Source of the DNA: Verrucomicrobiota bacterium
GTDB taxonomy: Bacteria > Verrucomicrobiota > Verrucomicrobiia > Chthoniobacterales > Terrimicrobiaceae
Direction of reading: 5' to 3'
DNA length: 64,000 bases
Assembly: GCA_017305195.1 (NCBI GenBank)
Contig: JAFKMU010000035.1
Coordinates: 124,001 to 188,000, forward strand
Shown here: positions 3,701 to 38,681 of the stretch, one piece after another
How positions within the stretch are numbered: position 1 is the first letter of the stretch
Layout: every line of letters starts with the position of its first letter
Notes under the pieces: model-generated
What the model was told of the DNA's origin: nothing
Databases searched by the model: none
What the model saw: only the letters and a program-made list of their open reading frames with translations
Position numbers and translations under genes: made by a program

Positions 3701-4081
3701 GCCTATACCTACAAGGGAGTGGCGGCGGAGGCTCAATCGCGCAATGACCTGCTCAGGCAGGTGATTGGTGCGACCACCACGCAAAGCAATGTCTTTTCCA
3801 TCTGGGTCGTGGCGAGGTCGGTGAAGAAGAAGGCCGCCAATACCAGCTACGGAGAATTTGAACCGGGAGATATCGTCACCGCCGAGGTGCGTCGTCGGTA
3901 TGTCGTCGAGCGGTTCATCGATCTTGGAGCGGATGGTGTACCCGGAAACGCCAGCAACCCGGGGCCCGATGGAGTCATCGGTACGGAAGACGATCCGGTG
4001 GATGCCAAATATCACCCGGCGATGAAGCCGCCATTTCCCTACCTTTGGCGGATCGTCAGCATGGAGGAAATCCAGCGTTAG
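761..4081 (+). CDS. Verru_Chthon cassette protein A-like, large pseudopilin-related protein
   Basis: This is a 1106-residue protein with a short basic N-terminus and a hydrophobic segment at about residues 10-30 (SALIIILAAVVMVTILCVAF), followed by a helical stretch like that of PilX/GspK-type minor pilins. The segment ILLQ/GTERRSS-like arrangement after the membrane helix and the very long extracytoplasmic region fit the Verru_Chthon cassette protein A family, known from Verrucomicrobium and Chthoniobacter genomes. The C-terminal part contains a motif GATEGKININNPAVPFPFSQ and a late GDIVTAEVRRRYVVERF segment. The ATG follows the stop of the upstream cassette gene without a gap. Role is unproven; a surface or secretion-associated pseudopilus tip component is one possibility. 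Confidence 0.75.
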   Translation: MKFQRSDRASALIIILAAVVMVTILCVAFLHFAGTERRSSRLALNATVARALANVGADAALAKLKYATEAGMQTGRLWSSEPGRIRIFPAGNLSSYEDVDLFSALPGPDVPGATDVNSVDLNKPSYQGKHPIAEPASSGGAAPMKVGWIDLLADPGSTASRENPIIGRVAYWVDDESCKININIADGSKKDSNLSFGFGTPSEVSLEALRKPDGSRISTAQAAKISEYAWNRGFNSAAEVTMAAENGEASEEFFERNKFALTHYSKAPEISFMGDPRIYLFPAVRLSSNGATANGLVRSWLTNAYGVALDSGLTNYLAYSGSTDAKRISITDPINFVYPTSRQIESALPGKAPFYQYGRHYYLDNAQFLSSAPSGTNPENYIFAKRIAEAIKGEDSLQGAFTWPGFSGSAAGGFADKYNDRQIDSLALQILDIGTRAAMGDEARGGNLPSLVTTGMVSGKNAIGLGRTPKFTEFTVSFDAVRTATNPAGAGPPPRVTNIPAVQVDPKLEFWFPTQYEGMPWDEKFGGYWRTGQNGNNYVLNPVEQVFADGCVLGGSWMDNLFQITGIDLGGLSYNSTDPDPRHAVYHPYRNGRGGSSNSQPSGNRRPPFAFPSVSSTGAVWKPGEYHGVPATDRGSVTLYGPNDPAMTAFPVSGGIVLWTQAGGAGAILGNWDVAPLDSLRGDYRTISGTSSYIYTNEDPLSIRAELKEAVIPVPTGFSIPVPAVEHVWHGYVKDPLVNKFPGDWIVADSDADATLQTSGTTAFSYLDGANHGFLASQGGDPLSIWMPRLDVSFPKQSRFPSIGALNYVRTGVAPDDLAVPLSRQKGTPWRSLSLTPASGSGQATQKGRYPDWAMLDLFTVPFLPQLPFRVGEAATPKRHLTFGGATEGKININNPAVPFPFSQTLSQTERDQFPKRTAPVEALFHNVRVNQGYNAADEPQYATLSDSQVNALVAAIQNRVAADGPFVLPGQVADLSEIDAYTYKGVAAEAQSRNDLLRQVIGATTTQSNVFSIWVVARSVKKKAANTSYGEFEPGDIVTAEVRRRYVVERFIDLGADGVPGNASNPGPDGVIGTEDDPVDAKYHPAMKPPFPYLWRIVSMEEIQR

Positions 4082-4086
4082 TAATC

Positions 4087-4593
4087 ATGCAAACCTCGAC
4101 TCGAAAATTCATCGCCATCGCGCTGTCGGCATTGTTCGTCATGACGGCAAAATCCGCGGAAGAAAAGCAGGACCAGCCCAAGGTGGAGGTGGTCGCATCG
4201 GGATGGAGTGTCGATGGCCAGCTGGTACTGGGCGTAAAAATCACCGCTGCGAAATCCCGGCCTCTGGAGCTTGGAAAGGCGGCGAAGTCGTCCGACCAGA
4301 CGGTCTCTCTTTTCACCACCAAGGAAAGCTGGCTGAAAGATGTCCGTACGGGAGGCAGGATTCCCGCGAGTCGCCGCTTTCCCAACAAGCCAAACTATGG
4401 ATGGATCAAGAGTGCCGAGACGATCGCGCCGGGTGACAGTCGCGAGTTTACAGCGGCATTTCCCGCGCCACCGCTGCCGCCGGTGGTGAACGGCAAACGC
4501 CAGGATTACCAGCTCGAACTCCACCTGCCGGGCGAGCTGCCCCCGGTCACGTTTCGTGTTCCAGTGCCAGCGGAGCTGTCGAGATCTCCATGA
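4087..4593 (+). CDS. small secreted protein of unknown function
   Basis: The start ATG at 4087 lies 5 bases after the stop of the cassette A gene and gives MQTSTRKFIAIALSALFVM followed by TAKSAEEK, a typical Sec signal peptide with cleavage near residue 23-25. An upstream ATG at 4045 in the same frame would bury this signal peptide and overlap the cassette gene, so it was not chosen. The mature part of about 145 residues is rich in proline and charged residues and looks like a small beta-rich domain; I recognise no family. Its position suggests it is co-transcribed with the Verru_Chthon cassette and may be a periplasmic partner of it. Confidence 0.6.
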   Translation: MQTSTRKFIAIALSALFVMTAKSAEEKQDQPKVEVVASGWSVDGQLVLGVKITAAKSRPLELGKAAKSSDQTVSLFTTKESWLKDVRTGGRIPASRRFPNKPNYGWIKSAETIAPGDSREFTAAFPAPPLPPVVNGKRQDYQLELHLPGELPPVTFRVPVPAELSRSP

Positions 4594-4627
4594 ACCCAGG
4601 CAGGCCGCTGCCTGTGCCTGCCCGGGT
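4594..4627. terminator. hairpin between convergent genes, probable bidirectional terminator
   Basis: Directly after the stop codon at 4591-4593 an inverted repeat has arms ACCCAGGCAGGC and GCCTGCCCGGGT, pairing at 11 of 12 positions around a 10-nt loop. No long T run follows on either side. It lies between the convergent secreted-protein gene and the end of the FAH-family gene. Confidence 0.5.
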
Positions 4628-4646
4628 CTCTCATGGGAGATGAACG

Positions 4647-5453
4647 TCAGGCTTTTTCGGCGGTGACCGGATTGGTCAGTCGGCCGATATGATCGATCTC
4701 GATGGTGATCTCGTCGCCAGGCTTCAGCCAGCGCGGTGGCTTGGCGGCCATGCCGACGCCGTGGGGCGTGCCGGTAAGGATCACGGTGCCGGGCAGGAGC
4801 GTGGTGCTGCCGCTGAGGAATTCGATGAGAGTCGGCACGTCAAAGATCATGTCATTCGTGTTCCAATCCTGCACGGTTTCGCCATTGAGGATCGTCCGTA
4901 TCCCGAGCTGGTTGGGGTCGGGAATGTCGTCCGTCGTGACCAGCACGGGGCCGAGCGGGCAGAACGTGTCGAAGAATTTTCCGCGGCACCACTGGCCGCC
5001 GCCCATCTTGAGCTGCCAGTCTCGTGCGCTCACGTCGTTGGCACAGGTGTACCCGAGGACATAATCGAGGGCGTCCTCCTTGCGCACATTTTTGCAGGGA
5101 CGACCGATCACGACGGCGAGTTCGCACTCGTAGTCGACTTCCCGGCTCGCCATCTTTGTCGGGATCTCGATTGGATCCCCGGGGTGTTGCAGGGTGTTGA
5201 TTCCCTTCACGAAGAGGATCGGCATCTGAGGTGCCTTGGCTCCGCTTTCCGCGGCGTGGTGGCGATAGTTCAGCCCGATGCAAAGGATCGCCGTGGGCTC
5301 CAGCGGAGCGAGCAGTTTGACGATGGCCTCCTGGGTCCCGGTCGGGGTGAGACCGGAGTACAGATCGCCCGAGAGGCGCTCGGCCTGTCCGGATGCAAGG
5401 AGCCTGCCGAAGTGTATCTGGTGGTCGGAAGTTTGGTAGCGGATGATTTTCAT
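4647..5453 (-). CDS. fumarylacetoacetate hydrolase (FAH) family protein
   Basis: The 268-residue product has the FAH-family core: VDYECELAVVIGR, SARDWQ, and near the C-terminus LTGTPHGVG followed by LKPGDEITIEIDHIG. Family members are metal-dependent enzymes acting on 2-oxo acids or diketo acids, for example 2,4-diketo-3-deoxy-sugar acid hydrolases and 2-hydroxyhepta-2,4-diene-dioate isomerases. The start at 5453 overlaps the stop of nagA by four bases (ATGA), so it is the last gene of the minus-strand operon; a longer in-frame extension exists upstream but is out of keeping with the family. With SDR enzymes in the same operon and an enolase-superfamily dehydratase nearby, a role at the end of a non-phosphorylative sugar-acid route (2-keto-3-deoxy acid, dehydrogenase, then diketo hydrolase) is plausible but inferred. 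Confidence 0.85.
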   Translation of the reverse strand: MKIIRYQTSDHQIHFGRLLASGQAERLSGDLYSGLTPTGTQEAIVKLLAPLEPTAILCIGLNYRHHAAESGAKAPQMPILFVKGINTLQHPGDPIEIPTKMASREVDYECELAVVIGRPCKNVRKEDALDYVLGYTCANDVSARDWQLKMGGGQWCRGKFFDTFCPLGPVLVTTDDIPDPNQLGIRTILNGETVQDWNTNDMIFDVPTLIEFLSGSTTLLPGTVILTGTPHGVGMAAKPPRWLKPGDEITIEIDHIGRLTNPVTAEKA

Positions 5454-6361
5454 GGGATAAAAAGGGCGCGCTGGGGATTGTCGCGGCAAAGAGCCATCAC
5501 CTGGGTTTCCGAAAGACCCAGCTCGCCAGTGAGCTTCTGCGAGACATAGGGGAGGCTGGCGGCTGAGCCGACGAGATGGCTGCCACCAGGAGCGCGAGCG
5601 GCCAGGTCGGGTCCGACTTCGATATCCCACCGGCCGAGAGTGTAACGGCCAGGCCCGAGCCCTGCGGCTGCCATGGCGTCGGTGGTCACGATGGATCTCT
5701 CCAGCCCGGCGAGATCGAGGTAGTTCTTTAGGACAAATGTGGGGATGTGCACGCCATCGGCGATGAAGCAGAGAGTGAGCTGATCTCTGAGAAACAAAGC
5801 ACGCTGAATGATATTGTCATGCCGGGGGAGTTGCGCCGGGCAGGCGTTGCCGAGATGGGTGAAAAGATTCAGCCCGTGGCGGATGGCGCTCCGGAGCTCC
5901 TCCAGGGTGGCATCGGTGTGGCCTGCGGAGACGGCGACGCCCTGGTCGCGAAGGAATCGGATGGTTGATCCCGAGGGATCTTGCTCCGGTGCCAGCGTCA
6001 CGAGGCGCACATGACCGCGGCCTGCTTGCAGGAGTTCACGCATGAGGCCCGTGTCTGCCGGGAGAATGGCGTCTTCCGGATGAGCGCCGCGGAAGCCCGC
6101 CAGCGCAGAGATGAAGGGCCCCTCGATGTGGATGCCCGCGATGACCTCGTCGGTCAGGGAGTTCTCCGCCTTTAGCCGGGCGATGGTCTCGATCCTTCGC
6201 GTCATGGTGTCCGGCTTATCCGTGATGATCGTGGCGAGGATCTTACGGGTGCCATCGCGGCGGAGCCGCCCGCATGCATGCATGAGGTCGACCCGAGACA
6301 ATCCGTCCTGGTTGAAGTCAACCCCGGCGTACCCGTTGACCTGGATGTCGAAAAAATCCAT
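5450..6361 (-). CDS. nagA: N-acetylglucosamine-6-phosphate deacetylase, barrel-only form
   Basis: NagA removes acetate from GlcNAc-6-phosphate, giving glucosamine-6-phosphate for NagB. The 303-residue protein shows the amidohydrolase metal and substrate residues: GIHIEGPF (Glu80), SAGHTD (His148), FTHLGNA (His169), ADGVHIP (His205) and VTTDAM (Asp228). It begins at DIQVNGYAGVDF, the point where typical NagA proteins of about 380 residues enter the TIM barrel, and ends soon after the last barrel helix at NPQRALFIP. The N- and C-terminal strands of the usual beta-sandwich are therefore absent. The gene is closed on both sides by neighbours (3 bp after nagB, 4-bp overlap with the FAH gene), so the short form looks genuine, not a mis-called start. 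Confidence 0.88.
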   Translation of the reverse strand: MDFFDIQVNGYAGVDFNQDGLSRVDLMHACGRLRRDGTRKILATIITDKPDTMTRRIETIARLKAENSLTDEVIAGIHIEGPFISALAGFRGAHPEDAILPADTGLMRELLQAGRGHVRLVTLAPEQDPSGSTIRFLRDQGVAVSAGHTDATLEELRSAIRHGLNLFTHLGNACPAQLPRHDNIIQRALFLRDQLTLCFIADGVHIPTFVLKNYLDLAGLERSIVTTDAMAAAGLGPGRYTLGRWDIEVGPDLAARAPGGSHLVGSAASLPYVSQKLTGELGLSETQVMALCRDNPQRALFIP

Positions 6362-6364
6362 GCC

Positions 6365-7105
6365 TTACTTGAGCAGCGAGGCCGAGGGCGGGTCCAGATA
6401 CAGGGTGGTGCCGACGTGCGTCTGCAGGATGGAAGCCGGAACGTCGGGGCTGATCGGGCGTTCCAGCGTATTGCGGACGGCCTCGGCTTTGCGGAGGTCG
6501 GGTACGGTGAGAATGATGGATCGTGACTTGAGGATCTGGCGGATCGACATCGAGATGGCCTGCCGTGGGACGGCATCGAGAGAGGAAAACCAGCCCTCGC
6601 CGAGCTGTTGGCGACGACAGGCCTCGTCGAGATTCACCACCAGATAAGGGCGGCTGGTCTGGAAATCAGCCGGAGGATCGTTGAAGGCGAGATGGCCGTT
6701 TTCTCCGATGCCGGCAAAACAGACGTCGATGGGATGCCCGGTGATCAGGGCTGCCAGCCGGTCGCACTCTGCCTCGGGATCGCTCTCTCCATTGATATAA
6801 TGAAACTGGTTCGGAGGATTGGGCAGGAGCCGGTGAAAGCGTTCCCAGAGATACTGGCGGAAGGAGGCGGGATGCGTGATGGGGAGGCCGACGTATTCAT
6901 CAAGGTGAAAGACAGTAACCCTGTTCCAGGGAAGCTCCTCTCCGACGAGCGTCTGAAGCATCTCAAACTGCGATGCCCCGGTTGCAACAATGATATTGGC
7001 TCTTCCGCGCTCCGCGATGGCCTCACGGATCAGCACGGCTCCGTGGCGGGCTGCGGAAGCTCCGGAAATTTTCTTGTTGGAACTGATGACGGTTCGAATG
7101 GACAT
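6365..7105 (-). CDS. nagB: glucosamine-6-phosphate deaminase
   Basis: NagB converts glucosamine-6-phosphate to fructose-6-phosphate and ammonia in the cytoplasm. The 246-residue product has the phosphate-binding [11 protein letters not shown] segment (about 40-50), the catalytic FHLDEYVGL motif (Asp69) and [13 protein letters not shown] (132-144), all hallmarks of the family and at normal length. The ATG at 7105 was chosen because it starts MSIRTVISS just before the family core; the in-frame extension to 7201 would overlap the upstream SDR gene heavily. It sits 4 bp after the SDR gene and 3 bp before nagA in a tightly packed operon, matching a GlcNAc/ManNAc or sialic acid degradation route. 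Confidence 0.95.
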
Positions 7106-7109
7106 GACT

Positions 7110-7862
7110 TTAGTAAACTGCGCGTCCACCGCTGAGATCGAAGGTGAACCCTGTGGTGAAACTGTTGGCGGGAGAAACGATGAACGCGGCGGTGTCGGCA
7201 AACTCCTCCAGCGTGCCGCAGCGCTTCATGGGGATCTTGTCCGTCATGTAGGAGACCTGGGCCGAGGGCATGGCATCGACGAGGGCGGTCTGGATCACTG
7301 CTGGAGCGAGCGCGTTGACGGTGATCCCGGTCTCGGCGTACTCCTTGCCCATCGACTTGGTCATGCCGATGACGGCTGCCTTGGAGGTGGAGTAGGCGAC
7401 CATGCCGGCGTTGCCCTCCTTGCCGGCGATCGAGGAGATATTCAGGATGCGCCCGTAGCTGGCGGATAGCATCACGGGGAGCACGGCCTGACAGCAGAGA
7501 AATGTGCCGCGGGTGTTGAGACTCAAGACGCGGTCAAAGTCGTCGACGGGGACTTCGTGGGACTTCAGGCTGGTCTTCCCGGTGATGCCAGCGGAATTGA
7601 CCAGGATCTCGATGGAACCTCGTTTTTGACGCACTGCTTCCACCGCGGAGCGGATTTGTTCGCCCTGGGTCACATCTACGACGTGCCAGTCGGCGGATTC
7701 CCCGAGTTCGGCTGATGTTTCGCGGAGCCTGGTCTCGTTAAGATCGAACAAGGAGACGAATACTCCCTGCTGGACGAGCTTGCGGGCGAGCGCCTTGCCC
7801 AATCCATCGGCGCCCCCGGTGATGATGGCCGTCTGATTGCTTGATGAGTTGAAACGAGTCAT
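7110..7862 (-). CDS. SDR family oxidoreductase (FabG-like)
   Basis: This 250-residue short-chain dehydrogenase has the cofactor motif [10 protein letters not shown] (about 15-24), an NSAGITG motif, the catalytic Ser in ISSIAG and the YSTSK pair. The C-terminus ends DLSGGRAVY, typical for classical tetrameric SDRs. NAD(P) preference cannot be read safely. The ATG overlaps the stop of the creatininase-like gene by four bases. Substrate is unknown; operon context with NagA/NagB and an FAH-family hydrolase points to oxidation of a sugar or sugar-acid hydroxyl. Confidence 0.9.
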
Positions 7863-8641
7863 GATGAAAATTCCCGGCGCTTCCAGGTGGCGAATTCCTC
7901 AAGGAATCCGGCAACCGCCGATGCGAGGAGCGTGAAAAGCTGTCTTCCCTTGTCCTCCGTTGCCAGCTCTGGAGAGCCGAGCGCTCCTGTCTGGGAGAGC
8001 TGGTCAAAGGTTTGGGAGACCACGACGCGCGAAGGCGTGTAGCCGAGAGGATCGTAATATTGGGAGCCGATGCCCTCTGTCTCTCCGGTGGCGTTATTCC
8101 GCACCCAGTCGGCGCGGATCGCGAGCATGAGGGACGTCTCGTACTCGCAGGCATGAGAGAGGCGGGGGGTTGCCATGAATGTCTGGGCGGCAAGCTCCGG
8201 GGCGGCGAGATTCCAATAGCTGGCTGCCGCGATCCAGGGTTCGCTCGCGCCCTTGTGCTTGAGGTTGAGCCGATACAGAGCCTCCGCAAAGGGTGTTTGA
8301 TTGCCACCATGGCAGTTCAGAAAGAAAATTCGCCGAAACCCGGCGGCAATCAATGAGTCGGCCATATCGACCAGGACCCGCGTATAGGTTTCGCTGCTGA
8401 TGCTGACGGTGCCGGGGAAGCCCAGGTGATGATGCGATGAGCCGCACCAGAGCGTGGGCAGCAGGACGATCGTTTCCGGAAGGAGCGCTTCGATCCTGCG
8501 GCCGAGTTCGTCGGCGATGGCTGCGTCTGTGATGACGGGCAGATGGTTGCCATGTTGCTCCAGTGCAGCGATCGGGATGACGGCGATGTGCGTCTGCGCG
8601 ATCCGGCCAATCTCGGGCGACGTGAGGTCGGCGTACTTCAT
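7859..8641 (-). CDS. creatininase family amidohydrolase
   Basis: The 260-residue protein has the creatininase fold signatures: PIAALEQHGNHLPV near residues 23-36, LWCGSSHHHLGFPGT, NCHGGN and HACEYETSLM. Relatives are metal-dependent enzymes that open cyclic amides or cleave formamide bonds (creatininase, mycofactocin MftE, ArfB formamidases), with metal ligands from the E-Q-H-G-x-H and H-A-x-E-x-E-T-S type motifs seen here. Start and stop each overlap neighbouring genes by four bases. What a lactam or amide hydrolase does among amino-sugar genes is unclear; it could open a cyclic intermediate or remove an N-acyl group. The substrate is not predictable from sequence. Confidence 0.88.
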   Translation of the reverse strand: MKYADLTSPEIGRIAQTHIAVIPIAALEQHGNHLPVITDAAIADELGRRIEALLPETIVLLPTLWCGSSHHHLGFPGTVSISSETYTRVLVDMADSLIAAGFRRIFFLNCHGGNQTPFAEALYRLNLKHKGASEPWIAAASYWNLAAPELAAQTFMATPRLSHACEYETSLMLAIRADWVRNNATGETEGIGSQYYDPLGYTPSRVVVSQTFDQLSQTGALGSPELATEDKGRQLFTLLASAVAGFLEEFATWKRREFSS

Positions 8642-9036
8642 TGCGGTATGCGCACGATGCAGTCGATTTCCACATCGATCTCGAGCAACTGCGCGCCGAT
8701 GGTTGTCCGGGTTGGGCGATGTGTGCCAAAGAAGTCGGCATAGACTGCATTCATCGCGGCGAATGTCTGTTTATCCAGGGGCTGGAGGTAAACCCGGCAG
8801 CTGACGACATCGGAGATATCTGCTCCGCAATGCTCGATGACGCGTCGGACGCACTCGAGGGTGAGTTGCGTCTGCTCGGTGATCGAGCCTCGGACGAATC
8901 CACCGGTCCTCGGGCTGAACGGTCCCTGTCCCGAGACGTGGAGCAGACGCCCCTCCGAGATGATGCCGGCGGAGAATGGTCCGCGGGGTTTAGGCAGCCC
9001 AGGGATTTCGGAAAGGATTTCGAGAGACGAAGGCAC
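8638..9036 (-). CDS. RidA family protein (reactive imine/enamine deaminase type)
   Basis: This 132-residue protein has the RidA/YjgF layout: PFSAGIISEGRLLHVSGQ at the start, DVVSCRVYLQP in the middle, and TRTTIGAQLLEIDVEID at the end, where the usual Arg and Glu of the active cleft occur. RidA proteins hydrolyse imine or enamine intermediates made by PLP enzymes or oxidases. It overlaps the creatininase-like gene by four bases and lies 12 bp after the aldolase gene, so it is co-transcribed. In this operon it may handle a nitrogen-containing sugar intermediate; that is inference. Confidence 0.88.
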   Translation of the reverse strand: MPSSLEILSEIPGLPKPRGPFSAGIISEGRLLHVSGQGPFSPRTGGFVRGSITEQTQLTLECVRRVIEHCGADISDVVSCRVYLQPLDKQTFAAMNAVYADFFGTHRPTRTTIGAQLLEIDVEIDCIVRIPQ

Positions 9037-28762: not shown

Positions 28763-28839
28763 TGGCTGTTGTAAGGAAAGATGACATGTCCTTTGCGTGT
28801 TGTTCCTCCAGGGGATTTATTTAGCGTGGCGGAGCTTTG

Positions 28840-30000
28840 TTGAGTTTCTACCGCCAATTTCTTTTTGAGGGAGTCGTCCCGTTCTGGCTGAAACACGGAA
28901 TCGACCGGGTTCATGGCGGTCTGCTGACCTGCATGGATGAAACGGGAAACCCGGTCAGCTCGGAGAAATTTGCGTGGTCGCAGGGGCGGGGGATATGGGC
29001 CTTTGCGGCGATTCACCGCCGCCTTTCACCGGACCCGGAGCTCCTGGAGATCGCGGAGCGGACGGCGGAGTTCTGTCTGGCGCATGCCATCCTGGCCGAT
29101 GGGCGGGTATGTTTCCGCATGTCGCGCAGCGGCGAGGTGCTGGAGGGGCACACGAGCGTCTATGCCGATCTGTTCCTGGCCTATGGTCTGAATGAACTGT
29201 ATCTCGCCACCGGCACGCGGCGCTATCGGGATGAGGCTCTGCGTTTGTTCCGGCAAAGCGCCGCCGAGATCCGGCAGCCCTATTTTAATACGATAGCTCC
29301 CTATGCCCTTCCGCCCGGAACCGCCTGGGTGCATGGACCTCCGATGATCGCGCTGGAGACGGCCAATGAACTGCTGGAGGGCGGTGAGGAAAGCGATGTG
29401 GCCGATTTTATCGACTGGGCGCTGGAGCGCATCATGGTCCGCCACCGGCGACCGGAGTGGGAAACCCTGATCGAGCACCTCGGGCCGTCGGATGAGTTTG
29501 TGGACACGCCTCCGGGCCGTGCGGTCGTGCCGGGGCATGCCATCGAGTCGATGTGGTTTGTCATTCACGCGGCGTCCCGCCGGGGCCGGCCTGATCTTGA
29601 GGGGCAGGCCATCGAGGTGATCCGCTGGATGCTCGAGGCGGGCTGGGACGCGGAGTACGGCGGTATCTTTCTCGGGTTGGACAGCCATGGCCGGCAGCCG
29701 ACGTGGTATGCTAATGCGGACAAAAAACTCTGGTGGGTGCATTGCGAGGCGCTCTACGCATTGGCGCTGTGCCGACGCCTTCGCCCGGAGCCATGGGTCG
29801 AGGAATGGTCTGGCCGGGTGCTGGACTGGTCGCTCGCGCATCACGGCGACGGCCGGGGCGAGTGGATCCAGCGGCTCGATCGGGAGGGAAAGCCGATCAA
29901 GGAACTTATTGCCCTGCCGGTGAAGGACCCGTTTCATCTGCCGCGCGCTCTCACCCTCAGCATTCAGCTTCTTTCCCATACGCATCCTTATGTCCGTTAG
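28840..30000 (+). CDS. AGE family epimerase/isomerase
   Basis: The roughly 386-residue protein has the (alpha/alpha)6 barrel signatures of N-acylglucosamine 2-epimerase-type enzymes: HGIDRVHGGLLTCMDETGNP, FAWSQGRGIWAF, GRAVVPGHAIESMWF and KLWWVHCEALYAL. Relatives epimerise GlcNAc/ManNAc, cellobiose or mannose. No ATG is available: a TTG at 28837 or 28840 is the start, the latter about 5 nt after GGAG. Alongside the NanA-like lyase and NagA/NagB it could convert ManNAc to GlcNAc. It heads the importer operon and its stop overlaps the next start by 11 bp. Confidence 0.88.
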   Translation: MSFYRQFLFEGVVPFWLKHGIDRVHGGLLTCMDETGNPVSSEKFAWSQGRGIWAFAAIHRRLSPDPELLEIAERTAEFCLAHAILADGRVCFRMSRSGEVLEGHTSVYADLFLAYGLNELYLATGTRRYRDEALRLFRQSAAEIRQPYFNTIAPYALPPGTAWVHGPPMIALETANELLEGGEESDVADFIDWALERIMVRHRRPEWETLIEHLGPSDEFVDTPPGRAVVPGHAIESMWFVIHAASRRGRPDLEGQAIEVIRWMLEAGWDAEYGGIFLGLDSHGRQPTWYANADKKLWWVHCEALYALALCRRLRPEPWVEEWSGRVLDWSLAHHGDGRGEWIQRLDREGKPIKELIALPVKDPFHLPRALTLSIQLLSHTHPYVR

Positions 30001-32695
30001 CCGTTTTTTTGCTCTTGTTTTGCTCCTGACTGGCTGGGCGGGTATGGCTCGGGCTGGAGGCAAGGTCGAGGTGGTGGACGGGAGGCCGCTCATCAATGTG
30101 GTCGTTCCGAACCTGCCGGTTCCGAGCGACAACTCTGCCGCTGCCCGCGCCCAGATCGCAGTGGTGCGGCAGTTTGAGGCGGATTTTCCCCGTATCTTTC
30201 GCGAGAAGTACCTTCCTCGCTATCTGGCCGATCCGAAGAAATATGGGGCTTACGACTGGGAAAATGTCGCGATAAGGCTGGTTCCCTTTTCCGGGCTGAA
30301 GGTCGAGGGGGTCGAAAGCGATCTCATGGCCATCGCGGGCGGCTCTCCACCGGATGTGCTGTATGTGAATTTCCGCAAATCCGACACCTATATTCGGAAC
30401 GGTTTCCTCTATCCCCTCGACAAGCTGGAGGACCCGTACTTCAACTCCTTCAGCGAGGCCCAGAAACGGGCGCGCGTGCACCCCAAGATCTGGCCCGTCA
30501 TCGAGCGCAAGGGGCCGGATGGCCAGAAACATGTCTGGGCCATGCCCACGGGCGGATTCATGGGGCGGGTGCTCGCCTACCGCAAGGATCTCTTTGACGA
30601 AGCGGGGCTGGCCCATCCCACGGTCGACTGGACGTGGGACGACATGCTGCACGCGGCAAAAGTGTTGACTGATCCCTCCCGCAGTCGCAGCGGCCTGCTG
30701 CTGCGCGGCGATCCGGGGTGGAACTTCTCCACCTTCCTGTGGTCCGCCGGAGGCGAGGTGATGGAGTACGACGAGGCTGCCGATGAGTGGCGGTGTGTCT
30801 TTGGCAGTCAGGAGGCGGCGAAGGCCCTGGACTACTATCTGCAACTGACCCAGGAGCTCTGGCAGACCAGGGACGGGCAATGGATGCGTGGTTATGCTTT
30901 CAACGACCAGCGCCTCGGCGACTACAAATGGCAGCGCGGCGAGGTCGGGATGAACCTCGTTTACATGGACGAGCAGTTCATCTCCGGGCTGAACCCGGAC
31001 GTGGTCGGCATCGTGCCGGTGCCGAAAGGGCCGACCGGGCAGCGTGCAGGCGAGCTGAACAGCCGCATGCTCGGCATCTACTCGCAGATCGCCTCGCCCG
31101 TGGTGAGGGATGCGGCCTGGGAGTATATCGCCTACCAGGACAGCGACGCCGCGGGAGCGGTGCGCACGCGCGTTTTGGTGGAGGCCGGGCTGGGGCGTTT
31201 TGTCAGCCCGCGCGATCTGAACCGATTTGGATATTCCGAGGTCGCCCGCCTCGCGCCCAAGGGCTGGGCGGAGGTGTTTCGCATCGCCTCGGAGACCGGC
31301 CGCCCGGAGCCTTACGGAAAAAACAGCAACCTGGCCTACCGCATGCTGGGCATCCCCGTACGCGAGGCGGCGGAGGCGGCCATGCGCAACGGCGTGCCGA
31401 AGGAGCCCGGCGAACGCATCAACTATCTCGCGCAGCTGCTTCAGCGCGGTGAGCAGCGGGCCAACGCCGTGATGATCGGCAAGGTGACGCCGGAGGAACG
31501 GAGGACGCGCTCCATCGTGGCCGCGATATTCCTTGCCTGCGTGGCTGCGGCATTTGGATTTGTTTTCTTCCGGGTGTTCCAGACTTTCGGATCGCAATCT
31601 TCCTCGGTGCCTGGACGGATGGGATTCCGGCGGGGGCTGGCGATCAGCCTCATGCTGGCGCCTGCGCTGCTTTCGATCCTGGTCTGGAAATACTATCCGC
31701 TGATGGCGGGTTCCGTGATGGGGTTTCAGGACTACCGTATCCTGGAGGGGTCGACCTGGGTGGGGTTGAAGCACTTTGGCGACATGCTGTGGGATGGGCT
31801 GTGGTGGCAGTCGCTGTGGAACTCACTGCGGTTCTCCTTTATCTCGCTCGTGTTCGGATTTCTGCCGCCGATCATCCTGGCGATCCTGCTGCAGGAGGTG
31901 CCGAGGGGTAAGGTGTTTTACCGTCTGATGTTCTATCTGCCCGCGGTGCTGGCGGGACTCGTGACCCTTCTGCTCTGGAAGCAGTTCTACGATCCGACAC
32001 CGCGTGCGCCGCTCAATGCCTTTGTCCTGAAACTGCCTGCCATCGTATTTGTCGGCGTGGGGCTCGCAGTGTTGTCGCTGACGCTGGTGCTGGCGAACCG
32101 GTTCCGGTTTCACGGCCAGATGGTTCCCGCCGCGATCTCGGCCCTTATCGGCGGCGTTTTCCTTTTCAGCATGGTGAGCATTCCCTGGGGAGTACTGGAG
32201 GATTATGGGCTGGCCGGCCTTTTTCGTACGCTGCCCGAGCCGATTCAATGGCTGAAAGACCCCCGGTACGCGATGCTGTCGATCGTGCTGCCGGGAATAT
32301 GGGCCGGCGCCGGGCCCGGGTGCCTGATCTACCTGGCCGCCCTCAAAGGCATCCCCGACGATTTCTACGACGCGGCCGAGATCGACGGAGCGGGTTTCCT
32401 GGACAAGCTCATCACCATCGTCATTCCCATGATGCGCCCGCTGATCATGATCAGCTTCGTCGGCGCATTCATCGGATCGTGGCTGGGGTCCGCGGACCAT
32501 GTGCTGGCCATGACGGGAGGAGAGGCCAATACCGAGGTTGCTCCGTTGAACATCTTTTACAAGGCCTTTGTGTACCTGGAGTTTGGTCCGGCGACGGCGA
32601 TGGCGTGGATGCTGGGATTCCTGCTTATCGGCTTCACGGTCTATCAACTGCGCATGCTCGCCAAGGTCGAGTTTCGCACCACGGGAGGAAGATAA
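29990..32695 (+). CDS. ABC sugar importer subunit: solute-binding protein fused to a MalF-type permease
   Basis: The 901-residue protein has a signal peptide (FFALVLLLTGWAGMARA), then an extracellular solute-binding domain to about residue 490, with LMAIAGGSPPDVLYVN, VGIVPVPKGPTG and SQIASPVVRDAAWEYI typical of family 1 sugar-binding proteins. A transmembrane helix (about 505-525, IVAAIFLACVAAAFGFVFF) links it to a membrane-permease domain whose EAA loop is at about residue 795 (YDAAEIDGAGFLDK) followed by IVIPMMRPLIMISFVGAF. Binding protein and MalF-like subunit are usually separate. The gene overlaps the AGE gene and is followed 4 bp later by the MalG-like partner. No ATPase gene accompanies it. 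Confidence 0.88.
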   Translation: MSVSRFFALVLLLTGWAGMARAGGKVEVVDGRPLINVVVPNLPVPSDNSAAARAQIAVVRQFEADFPRIFREKYLPRYLADPKKYGAYDWENVAIRLVPFSGLKVEGVESDLMAIAGGSPPDVLYVNFRKSDTYIRNGFLYPLDKLEDPYFNSFSEAQKRARVHPKIWPVIERKGPDGQKHVWAMPTGGFMGRVLAYRKDLFDEAGLAHPTVDWTWDDMLHAAKVLTDPSRSRSGLLLRGDPGWNFSTFLWSAGGEVMEYDEAADEWRCVFGSQEAAKALDYYLQLTQELWQTRDGQWMRGYAFNDQRLGDYKWQRGEVGMNLVYMDEQFISGLNPDVVGIVPVPKGPTGQRAGELNSRMLGIYSQIASPVVRDAAWEYIAYQDSDAAGAVRTRVLVEAGLGRFVSPRDLNRFGYSEVARLAPKGWAEVFRIASETGRPEPYGKNSNLAYRMLGIPVREAAEAAMRNGVPKEPGERINYLAQLLQRGEQRANAVMIGKVTPEERRTRSIVAAIFLACVAAAFGFVFFRVFQTFGSQSSSVPGRMGFRRGLAISLMLAPALLSILVWKYYPLMAGSVMGFQDYRILEGSTWVGLKHFGDMLWDGLWWQSLWNSLRFSFISLVFGFLPPIILAILLQEVPRGKVFYRLMFYLPAVLAGLVTLLLWKQFYDPTPRAPLNAFVLKLPAIVFVGVGLAVLSLTLVLANRFRFHGQMVPAAISALIGGVFLFSMVSIPWGVLEDYGLAGLFRTLPEPIQWLKDPRYAMLSIVLPGIWAGAGPGCLIYLAALKGIPDDFYDAAEIDGAGFLDKLITIVIPMMRPLIMISFVGAFIGSWLGSADHVLAMTGGEANTEVAPLNIFYKAFVYLEFGPATAMAWMLGFLLIGFTVYQLRMLAKVEFRTTGGR

Positions 32696-32699
32696 ACCC

Positions 32700-34607
32700 A
32701 TGCCAATGATCTCTCTCATCGGGCGTCGACAATGGAAGTCGCGTCTCCTGATCTGGTCCATCTACATCCTGCTCTCAGCGGGTGTGGTGACGATGGTGTA
32801 TCCCTTTTTGCTCATGCTGAGCGGCAGCACCAAGACGTCGCTGGATGCCGCCGAGGTGACCGTGGTGCCGCGCTATCTCGTCAATGAAACCGCTCTGTAC
32901 CAAAAATACCTCGAGGGGTTCTTCAACGAGCGAAGCGTGGCGATGCAGAACGCCTACGGGCTGTGGGACGCGACCTTCCTGCAGGTGAATCCCCCGGAAA
33001 AATCGTCGCCTCTGGATGCGGACTGGCGGTTGTTTGTCGCCAGCCGGGAAAAGAGCGAGAACGTGGCGTGGTTCGTCCTCGCCTATTTGCAATGCCCTGT
33101 CAGCAAGAACGCAGTGCCGTTCAACCTCGCAAAGCTGCGATCCGAACTGCTGAAGGAAAACGGCAGCATTGAGGCGATCAATCTCAAGTACCAGACCTCC
33201 TTTCCCAATGTATCGGCCTTCTATGTCGTGCCGGCGAACTTTCTCAATCGGTTCGTCACCGATGCGGCGACTCCATTTTCCCAGAGGGTCGAGGAGTTCT
33301 CTCTCTCCCAGCCGGTCACGTGGAGAGCGTACCTGGATCTGTCGAACTTCTTCCGCAGCTACCTGCGCGGAGAGCATGGGGGGGCTATTGAGGACCTGAA
33401 CCGCGCTCTCGGGACGCGATTTTCCTCCTGGGGCGATGTCCCGCTCGAACCCTCGGCGGCCGAGATGCCGCCGGGACTGCGCAAGGACTACGAGGTTTTT
33501 GTGCGGAATGTCGTGAACCCCGCATTTTTGCAGGTTGACCCCGGGGCCGCCCCGGCTTTCCAAGCCTATCTTCGCGCCAAGTATCGCAGCGATATCGTGG
33601 CCTTCAATCAGCGCCGTGGTACGTCACTCGCGAGCTTTGACGAGGTCTCCTTTCCCACCACCCGCCCTGCGGACGGCCTTGGCAAGACGGATTGGGACGG
33701 ATTTCTCGAGGGCTGGACCGACGAAGCCGCTGGCATCCGACACGTGCTTCCGATCGAAGCCGTGAAGCTTGCGGGACCGGATTTTGCCTTCCGGGAGTAT
33801 CTCCGCCAGCGCTACGGCAACCTGGCTGCGATGAATGACAGACTGGGAACTGCGCACTCCTCCTGGGGTGTGGTGCCGATGCCGCAACAGTCGGTCCAGT
33901 TTGCGGATTTCCAGGGGATGCAGGGCTGGCTGAAGTGGTACTTTACCACGCGCAACTATGTCGACGTGTGGAACTACCTCGTCGTCAACGGACGGGGCCT
34001 TTTCAATACGCTGGTCTTCTGCGCCCTGTCCATCCTGGCCGCTCTCACCGTGGACCCGATCGCCGCCTACGCCCTGAGCCGGTTTCGGCCCCGGTCCACC
34101 TACAAGGTGCTCCTCTTTCTCATGATGACCATGGCGTTTCCCGCCATGGTGACCCAGATCCCCATGTTCCTTCTCCTGCGGGAACTCGGCATGCTCAATA
34201 CCTTTTGGGCGCTGATCCTTCCCGGGCTGGCCAATGGCTATCACATCTTTCTCCTCAAGGGCTTTTTCGATTCCCTCCCGCGCGAGCTTTACGAGAGTGC
34301 CGCCATCGACGGAGCGAGCGAGCCCACGATCTTTTTCAATATCACGATGTCTTTGTCCAAGCCGATCCTGGCCGTGATCGCGCTGGGGGCGTTCACCCAT
34401 GCCTATGCGGCGTTTATGTTCGCCTTGCTGATCTGCCAGGATCCGAAGATGTGGACCCTCATGGTCTGGCTCTTCCAGTTGCAGCAGACCAGCGGCCAGG
34501 GCATCGTTTACGCAGCCCTTATCGTTGCGGCCATTCCCACTTTGCTGGTGTTCATTTTCTGCCAGAACATCATCATGCGTGGCATCGTCGTGCCGGTGGA
34601 GAAGTAG
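32700..34607 (+). CDS. ABC sugar importer MalG-type permease with a five-repeat periplasmic insertion
   Basis: The 635-residue protein starts at an ATG with a good ribosome site (GGGAGGAAG). TM1 is at about 16-40 (LLIWSIYILLSAGVVTMVYP). The permease core resumes near residue 425 (NYLVVNGRGLFNTLVF) and has an EAA loop (YESAAIDGASEPTIFF, about 540). MalG-type permeases are about 280 residues. The extra 375 or so residues between TM1 and TM2 hold five degenerate repeats, starting near residues 68, 148, 219, 288 and 365. Their shared text is roughly YLRxxYGxIxAxNxxxGTxFxSWxxVPxP followed by an acidic-aromatic DWxxF stretch, for example AYLRAKYRSDIVAFNQRRGT and EYLRQRYGNLAAMNDRLGT. It is the last gene of the operon. 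Confidence 0.9.
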   Translation: MPMISLIGRRQWKSRLLIWSIYILLSAGVVTMVYPFLLMLSGSTKTSLDAAEVTVVPRYLVNETALYQKYLEGFFNERSVAMQNAYGLWDATFLQVNPPEKSSPLDADWRLFVASREKSENVAWFVLAYLQCPVSKNAVPFNLAKLRSELLKENGSIEAINLKYQTSFPNVSAFYVVPANFLNRFVTDAATPFSQRVEEFSLSQPVTWRAYLDLSNFFRSYLRGEHGGAIEDLNRALGTRFSSWGDVPLEPSAAEMPPGLRKDYEVFVRNVVNPAFLQVDPGAAPAFQAYLRAKYRSDIVAFNQRRGTSLASFDEVSFPTTRPADGLGKTDWDGFLEGWTDEAAGIRHVLPIEAVKLAGPDFAFREYLRQRYGNLAAMNDRLGTAHSSWGVVPMPQQSVQFADFQGMQGWLKWYFTTRNYVDVWNYLVVNGRGLFNTLVFCALSILAALTVDPIAAYALSRFRPRSTYKVLLFLMMTMAFPAMVTQIPMFLLLRELGMLNTFWALILPGLANGYHIFLLKGFFDSLPRELYESAAIDGASEPTIFFNITMSLSKPILAVIALGAFTHAYAAFMFALLICQDPKMWTLMVWLFQLQQTSGQGIVYAALIVAAIPTLLVFIFCQNIIMRGIVVPVEK

Positions 34608-35531: not shown

Positions 35532-35606
35532 GGGCAGTTAGCTCAGCGGTAGAGCGGTAGTCTTACACACTATTGGTCGGGGGTTCGATCCCCTCACTGC
35601 CCACCA
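35532..35606 (+). tRNA. tRNA-Val (anticodon UAC)
   Basis: A full cloverleaf can be folded: acceptor GGGCAGT/ACTGCCC, D-arm GCTC-loop-GAGC, anticodon arm GTAGT-CTTACAC-ACTAT with TAC at 35564-35566, T-arm GGGGG-TTCGATC-CCCTC, discriminator A and an encoded CCA end at 35604-35606. The 3' 13 bases overlap the antisense stop end of the downstream minus-strand gene. Confidence 0.95.
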
Positions 35607-37498
35607 TTTACCAGCTCCAGCACGCGGCTGGAGACTTCCTCCGGGGTCACGGCGGCCATGCAGCGGAAATCCACCGGGCAATCGCGCAGGAAGCACGGGC
35701 TGCACTCGACCCGATGCCGGATCACCACGCTCTTGTCGTTGCGAGGGCCGGTGAGGTCGGGTTCCGTGGAGCCGAAGACCGAGACGAGCGGCACGCCGAG
35801 GAAATCCGCGAGGTGCATCGTGCCGGTGTCGTTGGTCACGAGGGCGGTGAGGGTTTCCAGCGTCTCCACGAGGCCGTCGAGGGACGTCTTGCCGGTCAGG
35901 TCCTCCGCCTCGCCGGGGAATCCCGCGAGGATCTCGGTGGCGATGGGTTGATCGGCGGCGACGCCCAGGATCACCCACTTGCAGTCGAGCTTGGCCGAGA
36001 CCAGGTCCATCGTCTTGCGGAAACTCTCTGCTGGCCAGCGCTTGGCCGGGCCGTACTCCGCGCCGGGGCAGATGCCGATGACGGGCTTGCCGGGAGCCGG
36101 ACGGCTGCGGCGGGGAAGGGGCGGGGGTTCAACGCCGCCGCACTTCTCGGCCAGCGTGAAGTACCGGTCCGCATGGTGCTCGGGCTTCGGAGCCGCCTTT
36201 TTTTTCTTCTTCTTTTTCTCGGACGGAATCTGGTTGAGGAAATACTCCCGGTTGTGCCCGCGATAGCCGAATCGGCGCGGTATGCCTGCCAGCCACGCCT
36301 CGAGGGCGCTGCGGAGCGAATTCGGAAACAGCACGGCCACGTCGAAGCGGCCCCGGATTTTCTTCGCCACGGAGAAAATCGACTCTTTGGGCTCAAAGGG
36401 AATGATCTCGTCCACCTCGGGCACGAGTTTCCAGAGCCCGGCCAGCTTGGCGGGGGTAAGGATGGCGAGTTGGGAATCCGGGCGGCCCAGTTTGAAGGCG
36501 CGGGCGGCGCGGAAGCTCATCACGGCGTCGCCCAGCCAGTTCGGCGAGCGCACGACGATGCGAAAGGGCTTCAGCTTCTCCTTCTCGCCCTCCGGGAGGT
36601 ACACGCCGCGCTTCTGCGTGACGGTAAGGAAGTGCGGGAGCGGGGTTTTCCAGCGGTTGTGAACCCAGAACCAGTCGGCGGGCGACTCGCGGATCTGGCG
36701 CTCGAGCGCCTTGTTGATATCGAGGGTGAGCTGCTCGGGCTGGGCCGGATCGTAGGTCACCTCCTCGCTGATCTCGACGCGCCATTTGGCGAAGCCCTCG
36801 GTGAAGATCGCGATCGGCACCACGGCGGCCTCCGTGCGGATGGCCAGAGTGGCCGCGAGCGGCGAGGTGGAGCTCAGGCGGTTGAAAAACGGCATGAAAA
36901 TACCGCCGTCCCCGGCATTCTGGTCGACCAGCACGCCGACCACGCCGGGCTGGCGCAGGAGGGCGATGGCTTCGTTGAAGCCCCGCTTGCGGTCAAAGGT
37001 GGCCACGCCGAGGCGGCGGCGGTCCTGGTTGATCAGGTCGTCGAGCGGCTTGTTGCGCAACGCCTGGTAGACCGTGCCAAACTTGATCTCCGGCATCATG
37101 AACACCATCTGGGCGTAAAGCTCCCAGTTGCCGATGTGGTTGATGGCGATGACGGCGGGGCGTCCGGCGGCGAGGTGCTTTTGCAGACGTTCGGGGTGGG
37201 AGATCCAGGCAGCCTTGGCGATCACCTTCTGCGGAGCCCCCGCAATGTTCAGGGCGCAGACGCTGTTGGCCCCGAGGGTGGTGAAGTGCTTGAAGGTGAG
37301 GGCGCGGATTTCCGCCGGGGTTTTCTCCTCGCCAAAGACGCGGGTGAGATTTTCCCTTGCGAGCCGCCGATAGCTGGGCAGGATGGCCCACAGTAGCGCC
37401 CCGAGCGACTGGCCGAGAACAAAGGCCGCGCCGAGTGGCAGACATCGGATTACCGAGATGATGCCCAGCGCCAGAAAGTACGTAATACGGTCAACCAT
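35594..37498 (-). CDS. fusion of lipid A-type acyltransferase and heptosyltransferase II-like domains
   Basis: The 634-residue protein has an N-terminal LpxL/HtrB-like acyltransferase (about 1-290) with the H-x4-E type motif AINHIGNWELYA, LVDQNAGDGGIFMPFF and WFWVHNRWKTP. It is followed by a GT9 glycosyltransferase domain like WaaF (about 305-634): VVRSPNWLGDAVMSFRA, GICPGAEYGPAKRWP, VTNDTGTMHLADFLGVP and FGSTEPDLTGP. Both steps belong to LPS core/lipid A assembly at the inner membrane. A Lys-rich stretch (KKKKKKKAAPKP) sits inside the GT domain. It starts at 37498, sharing CATG with the divergent purK start, and its last codons lie inside tRNA-Val on the opposite strand. Confidence 0.85.
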   Translation of the reverse strand: MVDRITYFLALGIISVIRCLPLGAAFVLGQSLGALLWAILPSYRRLARENLTRVFGEEKTPAEIRALTFKHFTTLGANSVCALNIAGAPQKVIAKAAWISHPERLQKHLAAGRPAVIAINHIGNWELYAQMVFMMPEIKFGTVYQALRNKPLDDLINQDRRRLGVATFDRKRGFNEAIALLRQPGVVGVLVDQNAGDGGIFMPFFNRLSSTSPLAATLAIRTEAAVVPIAIFTEGFAKWRVEISEEVTYDPAQPEQLTLDINKALERQIRESPADWFWVHNRWKTPLPHFLTVTQKRGVYLPEGEKEKLKPFRIVVRSPNWLGDAVMSFRAARAFKLGRPDSQLAILTPAKLAGLWKLVPEVDEIIPFEPKESIFSVAKKIRGRFDVAVLFPNSLRSALEAWLAGIPRRFGYRGHNREYFLNQIPSEKKKKKKKAAPKPEHHADRYFTLAEKCGGVEPPPLPRRSRPAPGKPVIGICPGAEYGPAKRWPAESFRKTMDLVSAKLDCKWVILGVAADQPIATEILAGFPGEAEDLTGKTSLDGLVETLETLTALVTNDTGTMHLADFLGVPLVSVFGSTEPDLTGPRNDKSVVIRHRVECSPCFLRDCPVDFRCMAAVTPEEVSSRVLELVNGGQ

Positions 37499-38681
37499 GC
37501 AGAACGAGAACGAGCACCCTAGCCGAGCCGATGCTCCGGCGAAAAGGAATTCCATCAACCCCGGCAGCACCGTCGGCATCCTCGGCGGAGGCCAGCTCGG
37601 GCGCATGTTTGGCATCGCCGCCCGGCGGATGGGGTACAGGGTGCACGCTTTTGAGCCCAATCCGGACAGCCCGGCCGGCCAGATCAGCGATGTCGAGGTG
37701 ACGGCTTCGTTTACGGATACCGACGCGCTGGCCCGGTTTGCCTCCGGAGTGGACGCGATTTCCTTTGAGTTTGAGAACATCCCGCTCAGCGCGGTGCAGG
37801 CAGTCGAGTCGATCTGCCCGGTGCGTCCGCGCGGCGAGGTGCTGCACATCTGCCAGAACCGCGAGCGCGAAAAGACCTTCCTGCGCCAGCATGGCTTTCC
37901 TCATGCGGAGTTCCGCGTGGTCGACTCTGCGGAATCCCTCGCGGCGGCGATCAGCGAGATCGGCACGCCTTCCGTGTTGAAGACGGCCGATTTCGGGTAT
38001 GATGGCAAGGGGCAGGTAAAACTCAGCGGCCCGGTTGACGCGGCGCAGCTTTGGGAGAATTTCGGTGCGCCGCGCGGCGTGCTGGAAGCCTGGGTGCCTT
38101 TTGAACTGGAACTGTCCGTGGTCGTGGCTCGCGGGGTCGACGGTGTGGCGGTGTCCTTCCCGCCCTCGGAGAACATCCACACCCACCACATTCTCGATCT
38201 TTCGATCGTCCCCGGTCGCTTTTCGCCCGAGGTCGCCGAGGCGGCGGAAAAGCTCGCCCGGGAAATCGCCGTCGCGCTCGACGTCGTCGGCCTGCTGGCG
38301 GTCGAGTTTTTCCTGACCCGTGATGGCAGGCTCGTTGTCAACGAACTCGCCCCGCGTCCGCACAATTCCGGCCACTACACCTTCGACGCCTGCGCCACGA
38401 GCCAGTTCGAGCAGCAGCTTCGCGCAGTTTGCGGCCTGCCGCTCGGCTCGCCCGAGCTGCTTACGCCCGTCGTGATGTGGAACATCCTCGGCCATCTCTG
38501 GAAGGACGGCGATCCTCGTTGGGATATCGTCCTCTCCGAGCCCAAGGCCAAGCTCCACCTCTACGGCAAAGCCGAGGCCCGGCCCGGTCGCAAGATGGGC
38601 CATGTCTGCGTGCTCGGCCCGGTCGATGAAGCTCTTGCCACGATCTCACGACTCAAGGCTGCGCTCGGTGACGAACGCTAA
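37497..38681 (+). CDS. purK: 5-(carboxyamino)imidazole ribonucleotide synthase
   Basis: PurK carries out the ATP- and bicarbonate-dependent carboxylation of AIR in purine synthesis. The 394-residue product shows STVGILGGGQLGRMFGIAA near residue 22, LKTADFGYDGKGQ (ATP-grasp loop), EAWVPFELELSVVVARG and VNELAPRPHNSGHYTFDAC, all standard. The ATG at 37497 is the closest start before the conserved core, giving a 20-residue extension; an upstream in-frame ATG at 37383 would lie inside the divergent gene. purE is not in the window. Confidence 0.93.
   Translation: MQNENEHPSRADAPAKRNSINPGSTVGILGGGQLGRMFGIAARRMGYRVHAFEPNPDSPAGQISDVEVTASFTDTDALARFASGVDAISFEFENIPLSAVQAVESICPVRPRGEVLHICQNREREKTFLRQHGFPHAEFRVVDSAESLAAAISEIGTPSVLKTADFGYDGKGQVKLSGPVDAAQLWENFGAPRGVLEAWVPFELELSVVVARGVDGVAVSFPPSENIHTHHILDLSIVPGRFSPEVAEAAEKLAREIAVALDVVGLLAVEFFLTRDGRLVVNELAPRPHNSGHYTFDACATSQFEQQLRAVCGLPLGSPELLTPVVMWNILGHLWKDGDPRWDIVLSEPKAKLHLYGKAEARPGRKMGHVCVLGPVDEALATISRLKAALGDER

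Follow-up and report, generated by a model that had tools for sequence, protein, structure and literature searches.

Importers of the maltose type are the textbook example among ABC importers, and a fusion of MalF with MalE occurs in Bdellovibrio. We know of no repeat platform in the partner permease of this fusion or in those of GlnPQ and OpuA. In the latter two importers, which come from Lactococcus, the binding domain is covalently joined to the membrane domain, and the published descriptions report that such tethered domains work (PMC8025302, PMC11065425). The E. coli importer MalFGK2-MalE has a free MalE and a MalG with a short loop between its first two transmembrane helices (TM1 and TM2). 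Its large periplasmic domain belongs to MalF (P2, residues 91-271), as given in a molecular-dynamics study (PMC3150292). The same study describes MalG residues 70-72 as periplasmic and directly in touch with MalE, and it cites biochemical and genetic work that places the N-lobe of MalE near MalG.

The importer described here is encoded in a window of 64,000 nucleotides, the whole stretch of DNA that was analyzed, from a Verrucomicrobiota bacterium. It shares with the E. coli system the MalG membrane domain and the EAA-type motif, and a MalK-like ATPase is encoded in the genome. In contrast to E. coli, the substrate-binding protein (SBP) is fused to MalF, and the TM1-TM2 loop of MalG is a 379-residue stretch of tandem units. 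The system is a variant of the CUT1 importers, and what sets it apart is the repeat array in MalG. The genes and the parts of MalG that flank the array are the following:

28837-30000, + strand: gene of the N-acylglucosamine 2-epimerase (AGE) family (PF07221, E 6e-30), with a putative TTG start
29990-32695, + strand: N-terminal SBP in fusion with a MalF-type permease (P0002, 901 aa; PF01547 at residues 113-388, PF00528 at 709-843)
32700-34607, + strand: MalG-type permease with the array (P0001, 635 aa; PF00528 at residues 459-624, E 2.7e-13; PF02449 at 37.8 bits)
32733-32822, + strand: TM1 of P0001 (residues 12-41), a helix in the AlphaFold2 model, which is of low confidence there
33981-34604, + strand: MalG membrane domain from TM2 onward, with the EAA-type coupling motif (PF00528)

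Both permeases match PF00528 above its cut-off of 26.4 bits (50.5 bits and 30.7 bits), and the top PDB sequence match of P0001 is E. coli MalG (2r6g_G, E 4.4e-15), in an alignment that begins at residue 434. The letters ELYESAAIDGA in P0001 (near 34284-34373) and DFYDAAEIDGA in P0002 are what we take to be the EAA coupling motif; in P0001, the columns E532, D537, G538, and A539 are invariant among 17 aligned sequences. P0002 carries a sugar-type SBP (PF01547, 86.7 bits, cut-off 26) followed by MalF in one chain, which bears out the fused binding domain that the initial annotation had assigned to the partner. The 379-residue loop of P0001 compares with the short loop that is usual, though not defining, in ordinary-length MalG, for which the controls have complete frames of 278-427 aa. 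Four bases separate the end of P0002 from the start of P0001, and the AGE ORF overlaps P0002 by 11 bases and is likely part of the same operon. The MalF part of P0002 seems, from its alignment, to hold an extra insertion near residues 680-750, where a gap of about 60-75 residues appears against distant relatives (e.g., L010 and L012).

A gene for a MalK-like ATPase (L136, 1870-3072; PF00005 and TOBE_2) lies 31-34 kb upstream, outside the operon and just beyond the window edge. It probably drives the pump, because it is the sole gene with an OB_MalK match in this genome, which is 95% complete. The AGE epimerase, together with glycan-acting genes near two relatives (GH38 and YdjC in L010, GH52 in L049), points weakly to an oligosaccharide as the substrate; the remaining annotated neighbors of the relatives have no relation to sugar uptake. 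The genome also encodes a second sugar permease of 664 aa with fused MalF-type and MalG-type domains (L002, contig C69, 190-2184, + strand), and single MalF-MalG ORFs of 811-967 aa, with a long stretch separating both domains, are found in other genomes (L125, L126, and L127). Elsewhere in the window, a 751-aa ORF (35594-37849, - strand) joins a lipid A acyltransferase (PF03279) to a heptosyltransferase (PF01075).

The insert between TM1 and TM2 of P0001 contains five units of about 72 residues (69-77) at 32892-33980:

32892-33110, + strand: unit 1, residues 65-137, degenerate (family-profile alignment; helix-helix-helix-strand in the model)
33111-33332, + strand: unit 2, residues 138-211, degenerate (family-profile alignment; model)
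33333-33542, + strand: unit 3, residues 212-281 (self-alignment, profiles, model; PF02449 19.3 bits, below 21)
33543-33773, + strand: unit 4, residues 282-358 (self-alignment, profiles, model; PF02449 12.2 bits, below 21)
33774-33980, + strand: unit 5, residues 359-427, which runs into TM2 (self-alignment, profiles, model; PF02449 19.6 bits, below 21)

In the self-alignment of P0001, the internal repeat is significant for units 3/4 (z 5.5), 3/5 (z 13.8), and 4/5 (z 10.3), scores that are reached in 0 of 500 shuffles each. The pairs 1/4 (z 3.5, 5 of 500 shuffles) and 1/3 (z 2.6, 13 of 500) are weaker, as is unit 2 against units 3-5 (z 1.3-1.7), and the pairs 1/2 and 1/5 are undetectable by single-sequence alignment (z -1.0 and -0.4). 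When profiles of 41 family members are compared with hhalign, all 10 unit pairs align with E of at most 1.6e-6 and a probability of at least 90, while all 15 control pairs of a unit with a membrane-domain block give E of at least 0.03 and a probability of at most 1.7. A smaller profile set agrees (10 of 10 unit pairs with E of at most 1.9e-5, in both groupings). Judged by alignment, units 3-5 are thus significant from P0001 alone and units 1-2 mainly through the family profiles. The five repeats that had been proposed between TM1 and TM2 are recovered by self-alignment (units 3-5), the 41-member profiles, and the AlphaFold model; of the proposed unit starts near residues 68, 148, 219, 288, and 365, the array as such stands, and the boundaries are reset a few residues upstream.

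In an AlphaFold model of full-length P0001, built from 17 sequences, the insert comes out better than the membrane domain. The best 50 of 124 Foldseek matches to this model are ABC transporter chains, with 3rlf_G as the best, and the loop was therefore modeled and searched alone. The resulting model from 41 sequences is confident (pLDDT 92.4, pTM 0.90) and has the repeated modules that a fold prediction was expected to reveal: units 1-4 each form a helix-helix-helix-strand element, and unit 5 forms three helices that are followed by TM2. Against the PDB, the loop model yields 72 Foldseek matches with E of at most 10 and none with E of at most 0.001, so that the array as a whole finds no match; glycosidases are on top, with TM-scores (query) of 0.10-0.16 among the best 50 of the 72. 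Closure of the array into a complete barrel was considered, and the variable copy number and the missing whole-fold match in the PDB speak against such a model. The predicted repeat architecture may be new as a fold. Searches of an open-access library with few subscription journals, judged by titles and abstract starts, give no description of an array of this kind in a permease, and the initial annotation, which knew of no such repeats, agrees with this.

The kinship of the unit is indicated by its sequence relatives. PF02449, the profile of GH42 beta-galactosidases, matches the P0001 insert in three stretches with 37.8 bits for full-length P0001 (cut-off 21), which substantiates the beta-galactosidase-like segment noticed at the outset. 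Scanned singly, units 1 and 2 give no match and units 3, 4, and 5 all remain under the cut-off. Relatives reach 81.3 bits (a seven-unit member) and 57.4 bits (an eight-unit member), and PF02449 is not found in L037 (three units), L049, or L110. A unit profile built from 44 copies of units 3-5 (A3) finds GH42 enzymes among the PDB sequences (9ta3, E 3.7e-8; 1kwg, E 6.5e-8), and also a beta-1,2-glucosyltransferase, GH50 agarases, GH14 beta-amylases, and GH167; matches to fumarase (E 0.023) and cytochrome c oxidase (E 0.04-0.9) look like chance. One segment of the GH42, GH50, GH14, and GH167 enzymes corresponds to one permease unit. In the window's genome, the unit profile has 11 matches with E of at most 0.01, three in P0001 and eight elsewhere with one per ORF, and all seven of these eight ORFs that were scanned carry PF02449 above its cut-off. 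The unit is single-copy in the GH42 ORFs and tandem in P0001, and it therefore represents one segment of the enzyme barrel that is repeated here. The search for the repeat in other proteins has led to GH42 ORFs, PDB glycosidases, and related permeases, and sequence comparison shows homology of the array unit with a single segment of TIM-barrel glycosidases (GH42 among others).

In contrast to GH42-type enzymes, the permease has the segment in tandem and lacks a complete catalytic barrel: the best P0001 stretch covers positions 153-197 of the 376 in PF02449, the best stretches seen span about 136-253, and the model is a repeat array. The segment of 1kwg matched by the unit profile comprises residues 157-216 and excludes Glu141 and Glu312, which we take to be the catalytic residues. 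Two aligned GH42 enzymes have five extra residues in the middle of the segment (wsqr-like) that are missing from the permease units; this insertion presumably carries an active-site Trp. Neither the trimerization domain PF08532 nor any CBM family is among the Pfam matches of P0001 (E of at most 10; two families matched). Only one L and one N are kept in at least 90% of the 44 units. Among the loci collected, L043 holds a 1893-aa GH42-like ORF (3284-8962, + strand) with one unit-like segment at residues 796-844 and PF08532 at residues 1054-1204.

The array is widespread. A first scan returned 23 loci from records titled Lentisphaerae, Victivallales, Verrucomicrobia, Kiritimatiellae, Planctomycetota, Hydrogenedentota, Firestonebacteria, Armatimonadetes, and Chthonomonas, among others. 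Of 387 genomes sampled from the window's phylum, 115 match the insert (E of at most 1e-10), as do 82 of the 311 better ones. Its length falls into classes in 64 of 75 inserts, namely 246 (1 insert), 286-304 (13), 358-380 (41), 505-522 (8), and 579 residues (1), which implies steps of about 70 residues. The other 11 are of in-between length; several of these are divergent, and their length would imply more units than can be detected. An iterated unit HMM, trained on the same 75 loops that it counted, gives 3 units in 2 inserts, 4 in 15, 5 in 48, 6 in 1, 7 in 8, and 8 in 1; it splits one unit in both L038 (plus strand) and L041, which have the length of four-unit members. Applied to nine long inserts, an independent unit model built from other loci only detects 5-8 units in every one, with a complete count in two and weak units missed in seven; 2 of 900 shuffled inserts have any match of at least 5 bits to it.

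The copies differ in a position-specific manner. Four-unit members (e.g., L013, L015, and L017) are without unit 4 according to position-specific models, and a gap at unit 4 is seen in L013, L015-L018, L021, L022, and L025 of the Verrucomicrobia/Kiritimatiellae group. Members with seven units contain one or two additional copies that are mostly closest to unit 4, and the sixth is often weak. In a comparison with a same-genus relative, identity is 79% for the insert (dN/dS 0.109) and 98% for the membrane domain (0.021). The loop is under purifying selection, with a dN/dS per unit of 0.06-0.11, although dS has reached saturation in units 3 and 4.

The array goes with the SBP-MalF fusion. When a repeat permease has a complete MalF ORF in its locus, it stands beside an SBP-MalF fusion in 36 of 37 cases, and none of 21 ordinary-length MalG with a MalF in the locus has a fused partner (3 + 18, several of which share genomes; Fisher p 6.6e-15, a value that ignores relatedness and is not relied upon). 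The 20 ordinary control loci were hand-picked by frame length, and a MalF ORF is present in 18 of them and in neither L154 nor L155. The 36 complete fused MalF and the one that is complete without a binding domain (L075) come from a table of 84 permease-domain ORFs. Left out of the 36/37 count are 29 repeat permeases whose MalF is cut at the locus end (14 of them retain SBP sequence; the window's gene is entered here as L001), 14 without a MalF match in the locus, three ordinary-length MalG, and L019, which was scored as lacking repeats owing to a break that splits its permease frame, although units are seen in it. Upstream of the repeat permeases of L015, L016, L025, and L038 (plus strand), the locus extends for over 4 kb yet has no MalF match, and in L013, L017, L022, and L086 the fused MalF gene and the repeat permease gene are 1-4 kb apart. 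The exception L075 begins 26 bases into a locus that starts with the contig itself, and the SBP-MalF joint is matched on another contig of the same genome; the missing fusion is likely due to a contig break.

In the reverse search, an SBP-MalF fusion is present at 17 of the 20 loci that were chosen for a MalF-like ORF. In thirteen of the 17 (L111-L123, fusions of 815-990 aa), no MalG is found within a few kb of the fusion; it may lie elsewhere in the genome, and the pairing can therefore be tested in the remaining four alone. All four MalG have long frames (584-731 aa): L128 and L129 contain clear units, L110 lies on the opposite strand with weak unit matches (7.5 and 10.7 bits), and L124 contains another domain. 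These four were found via the fusion search and are kept out of the 36/37 count and of the 5/5 count given below. The association is strong, and its counts are not independent by descent; common descent alone could yield much of it.

In the MalG of L124 (3997-5748, + strand; 584 aa), no unit can be detected and the loop matches no Pfam domain. A search of 194 genomes with this loop retrieves five relatives besides L124 (L131-L135), and the six MalG have frames of 554-614 aa with a different domain of about 300 residues in the TM1-TM2 loop, for which the two members scanned (L124 and L133) give no Pfam match. All five relatives adjoin SBP-MalF fusions (5/5), as does L124, which was found via its fusion. 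The same loop thus accommodates two apparently unrelated domains, and in either case the partner is fused.

What is known of the short loop in E. coli bears on this association. MalG residues 70-72 belong to the TM1-TM2 loop because they precede MalG residue 85, which aligns with residue 434 of P0001; in the E. coli study this loop thus lies next to the binding protein (PMC3150292). From the contact of this loop with MalE and the association of loop domains with the fusion, we infer that the array may be a dock. It would be an enlarged form of the loop by which MalG contacts MalE in E. coli, and it would dock or position the tethered binding domain above the MalF/MalG opening, and copy number would tune the reach or shape of the dock. 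The reading as a whole, in which P0001 and P0002 form a CUT1/MalFGK-like sugar importer with the SBP tethered to MalF and the array is its extracytoplasmic docking platform, is plausible and has a slight edge over an even chance. The earlier suggestion that the repeats dock the fused binding domain gains indirect support from the association (36/37 versus 0/21, and 5/5 for the second domain), and the dock itself is a matter of interpretation.

Other roles for the array can be weighed against the same observations. It could substitute for a CBM and concentrate oligosaccharides near the transporter as a carbohydrate-binding platform inherited from glycosidases, given the common ancestry of the units and a segment of glycosidases, the avidity that repeated units could give, and the glycan-acting genes near L010 and L049. 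The conserved L and N look core-like, however, and the units lack the GH42 insertion of about five residues with its presumed Trp; this reading is unlikely, and the substrate platform that had been considered in the initial annotation is left unsupported by the missing insertion. A remnant glycosidase that is still active at the transporter mouth would agree with the GH42 homology, yet it conflicts with the partial coverage of PF02449, the position of the 1kwg match outside the presumed catalytic Glu141/Glu312, and the missing PF08532 match, and it is extremely improbable.

The stepwise copy number from 3 to 8 would suit a spacer that reaches to the peptidoglycan or an outer-membrane partner and whose reach is set by the number of units. 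No outer-membrane receptor is found among the few annotated neighbors (10 + 4, a weak test), and a spacer leaves both the tie to the fused binding domain and the alternative domain at the same site unexplained, which makes it distinctly unlikely. Variable copy number could also result from recombination that grows and shrinks a neutral insertion without a specific role, in keeping with the higher dN/dS of the loop than of the membrane domain. Such an insertion is very improbable in view of the position-specific unit identity that is kept in much of the family, the purifying selection on each unit (with the saturation of dS in units 3 and 4), and the spread of the array, which is found in 115 of the 387 sampled genomes and also outside the phylum.

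The docking reading can be extended to the origin of the system. Tandem duplication of a glycosidase segment would have given an array of 3-8 units without a whole-fold match in the PDB, which as a MalG dock of uncultured bacteria in several phyla would have co-evolved with the SBP-MalF fusion into a second architecture class of importers; tether and dock would then stand in for a pool of free binding protein. This fuller scenario is tentative, with a chance somewhat below even.

The array is a clear case of a fragment of an enzyme barrel that is reused as a repeat building block, and as it lifts PF02449 above the cut-off, it would account for a "beta-galactosidase" label on a permease. It defines a widespread version of the importer, found in uncultured Verrucomicrobia and Lentisphaerae as well as in other phyla, with a fused SBP and a large outer domain that is modular and countable. 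If the docking reading is true, the natural copy-number variants would form a series in which the positioning of a tethered SBP and the speed of sugar delivery can be tested.
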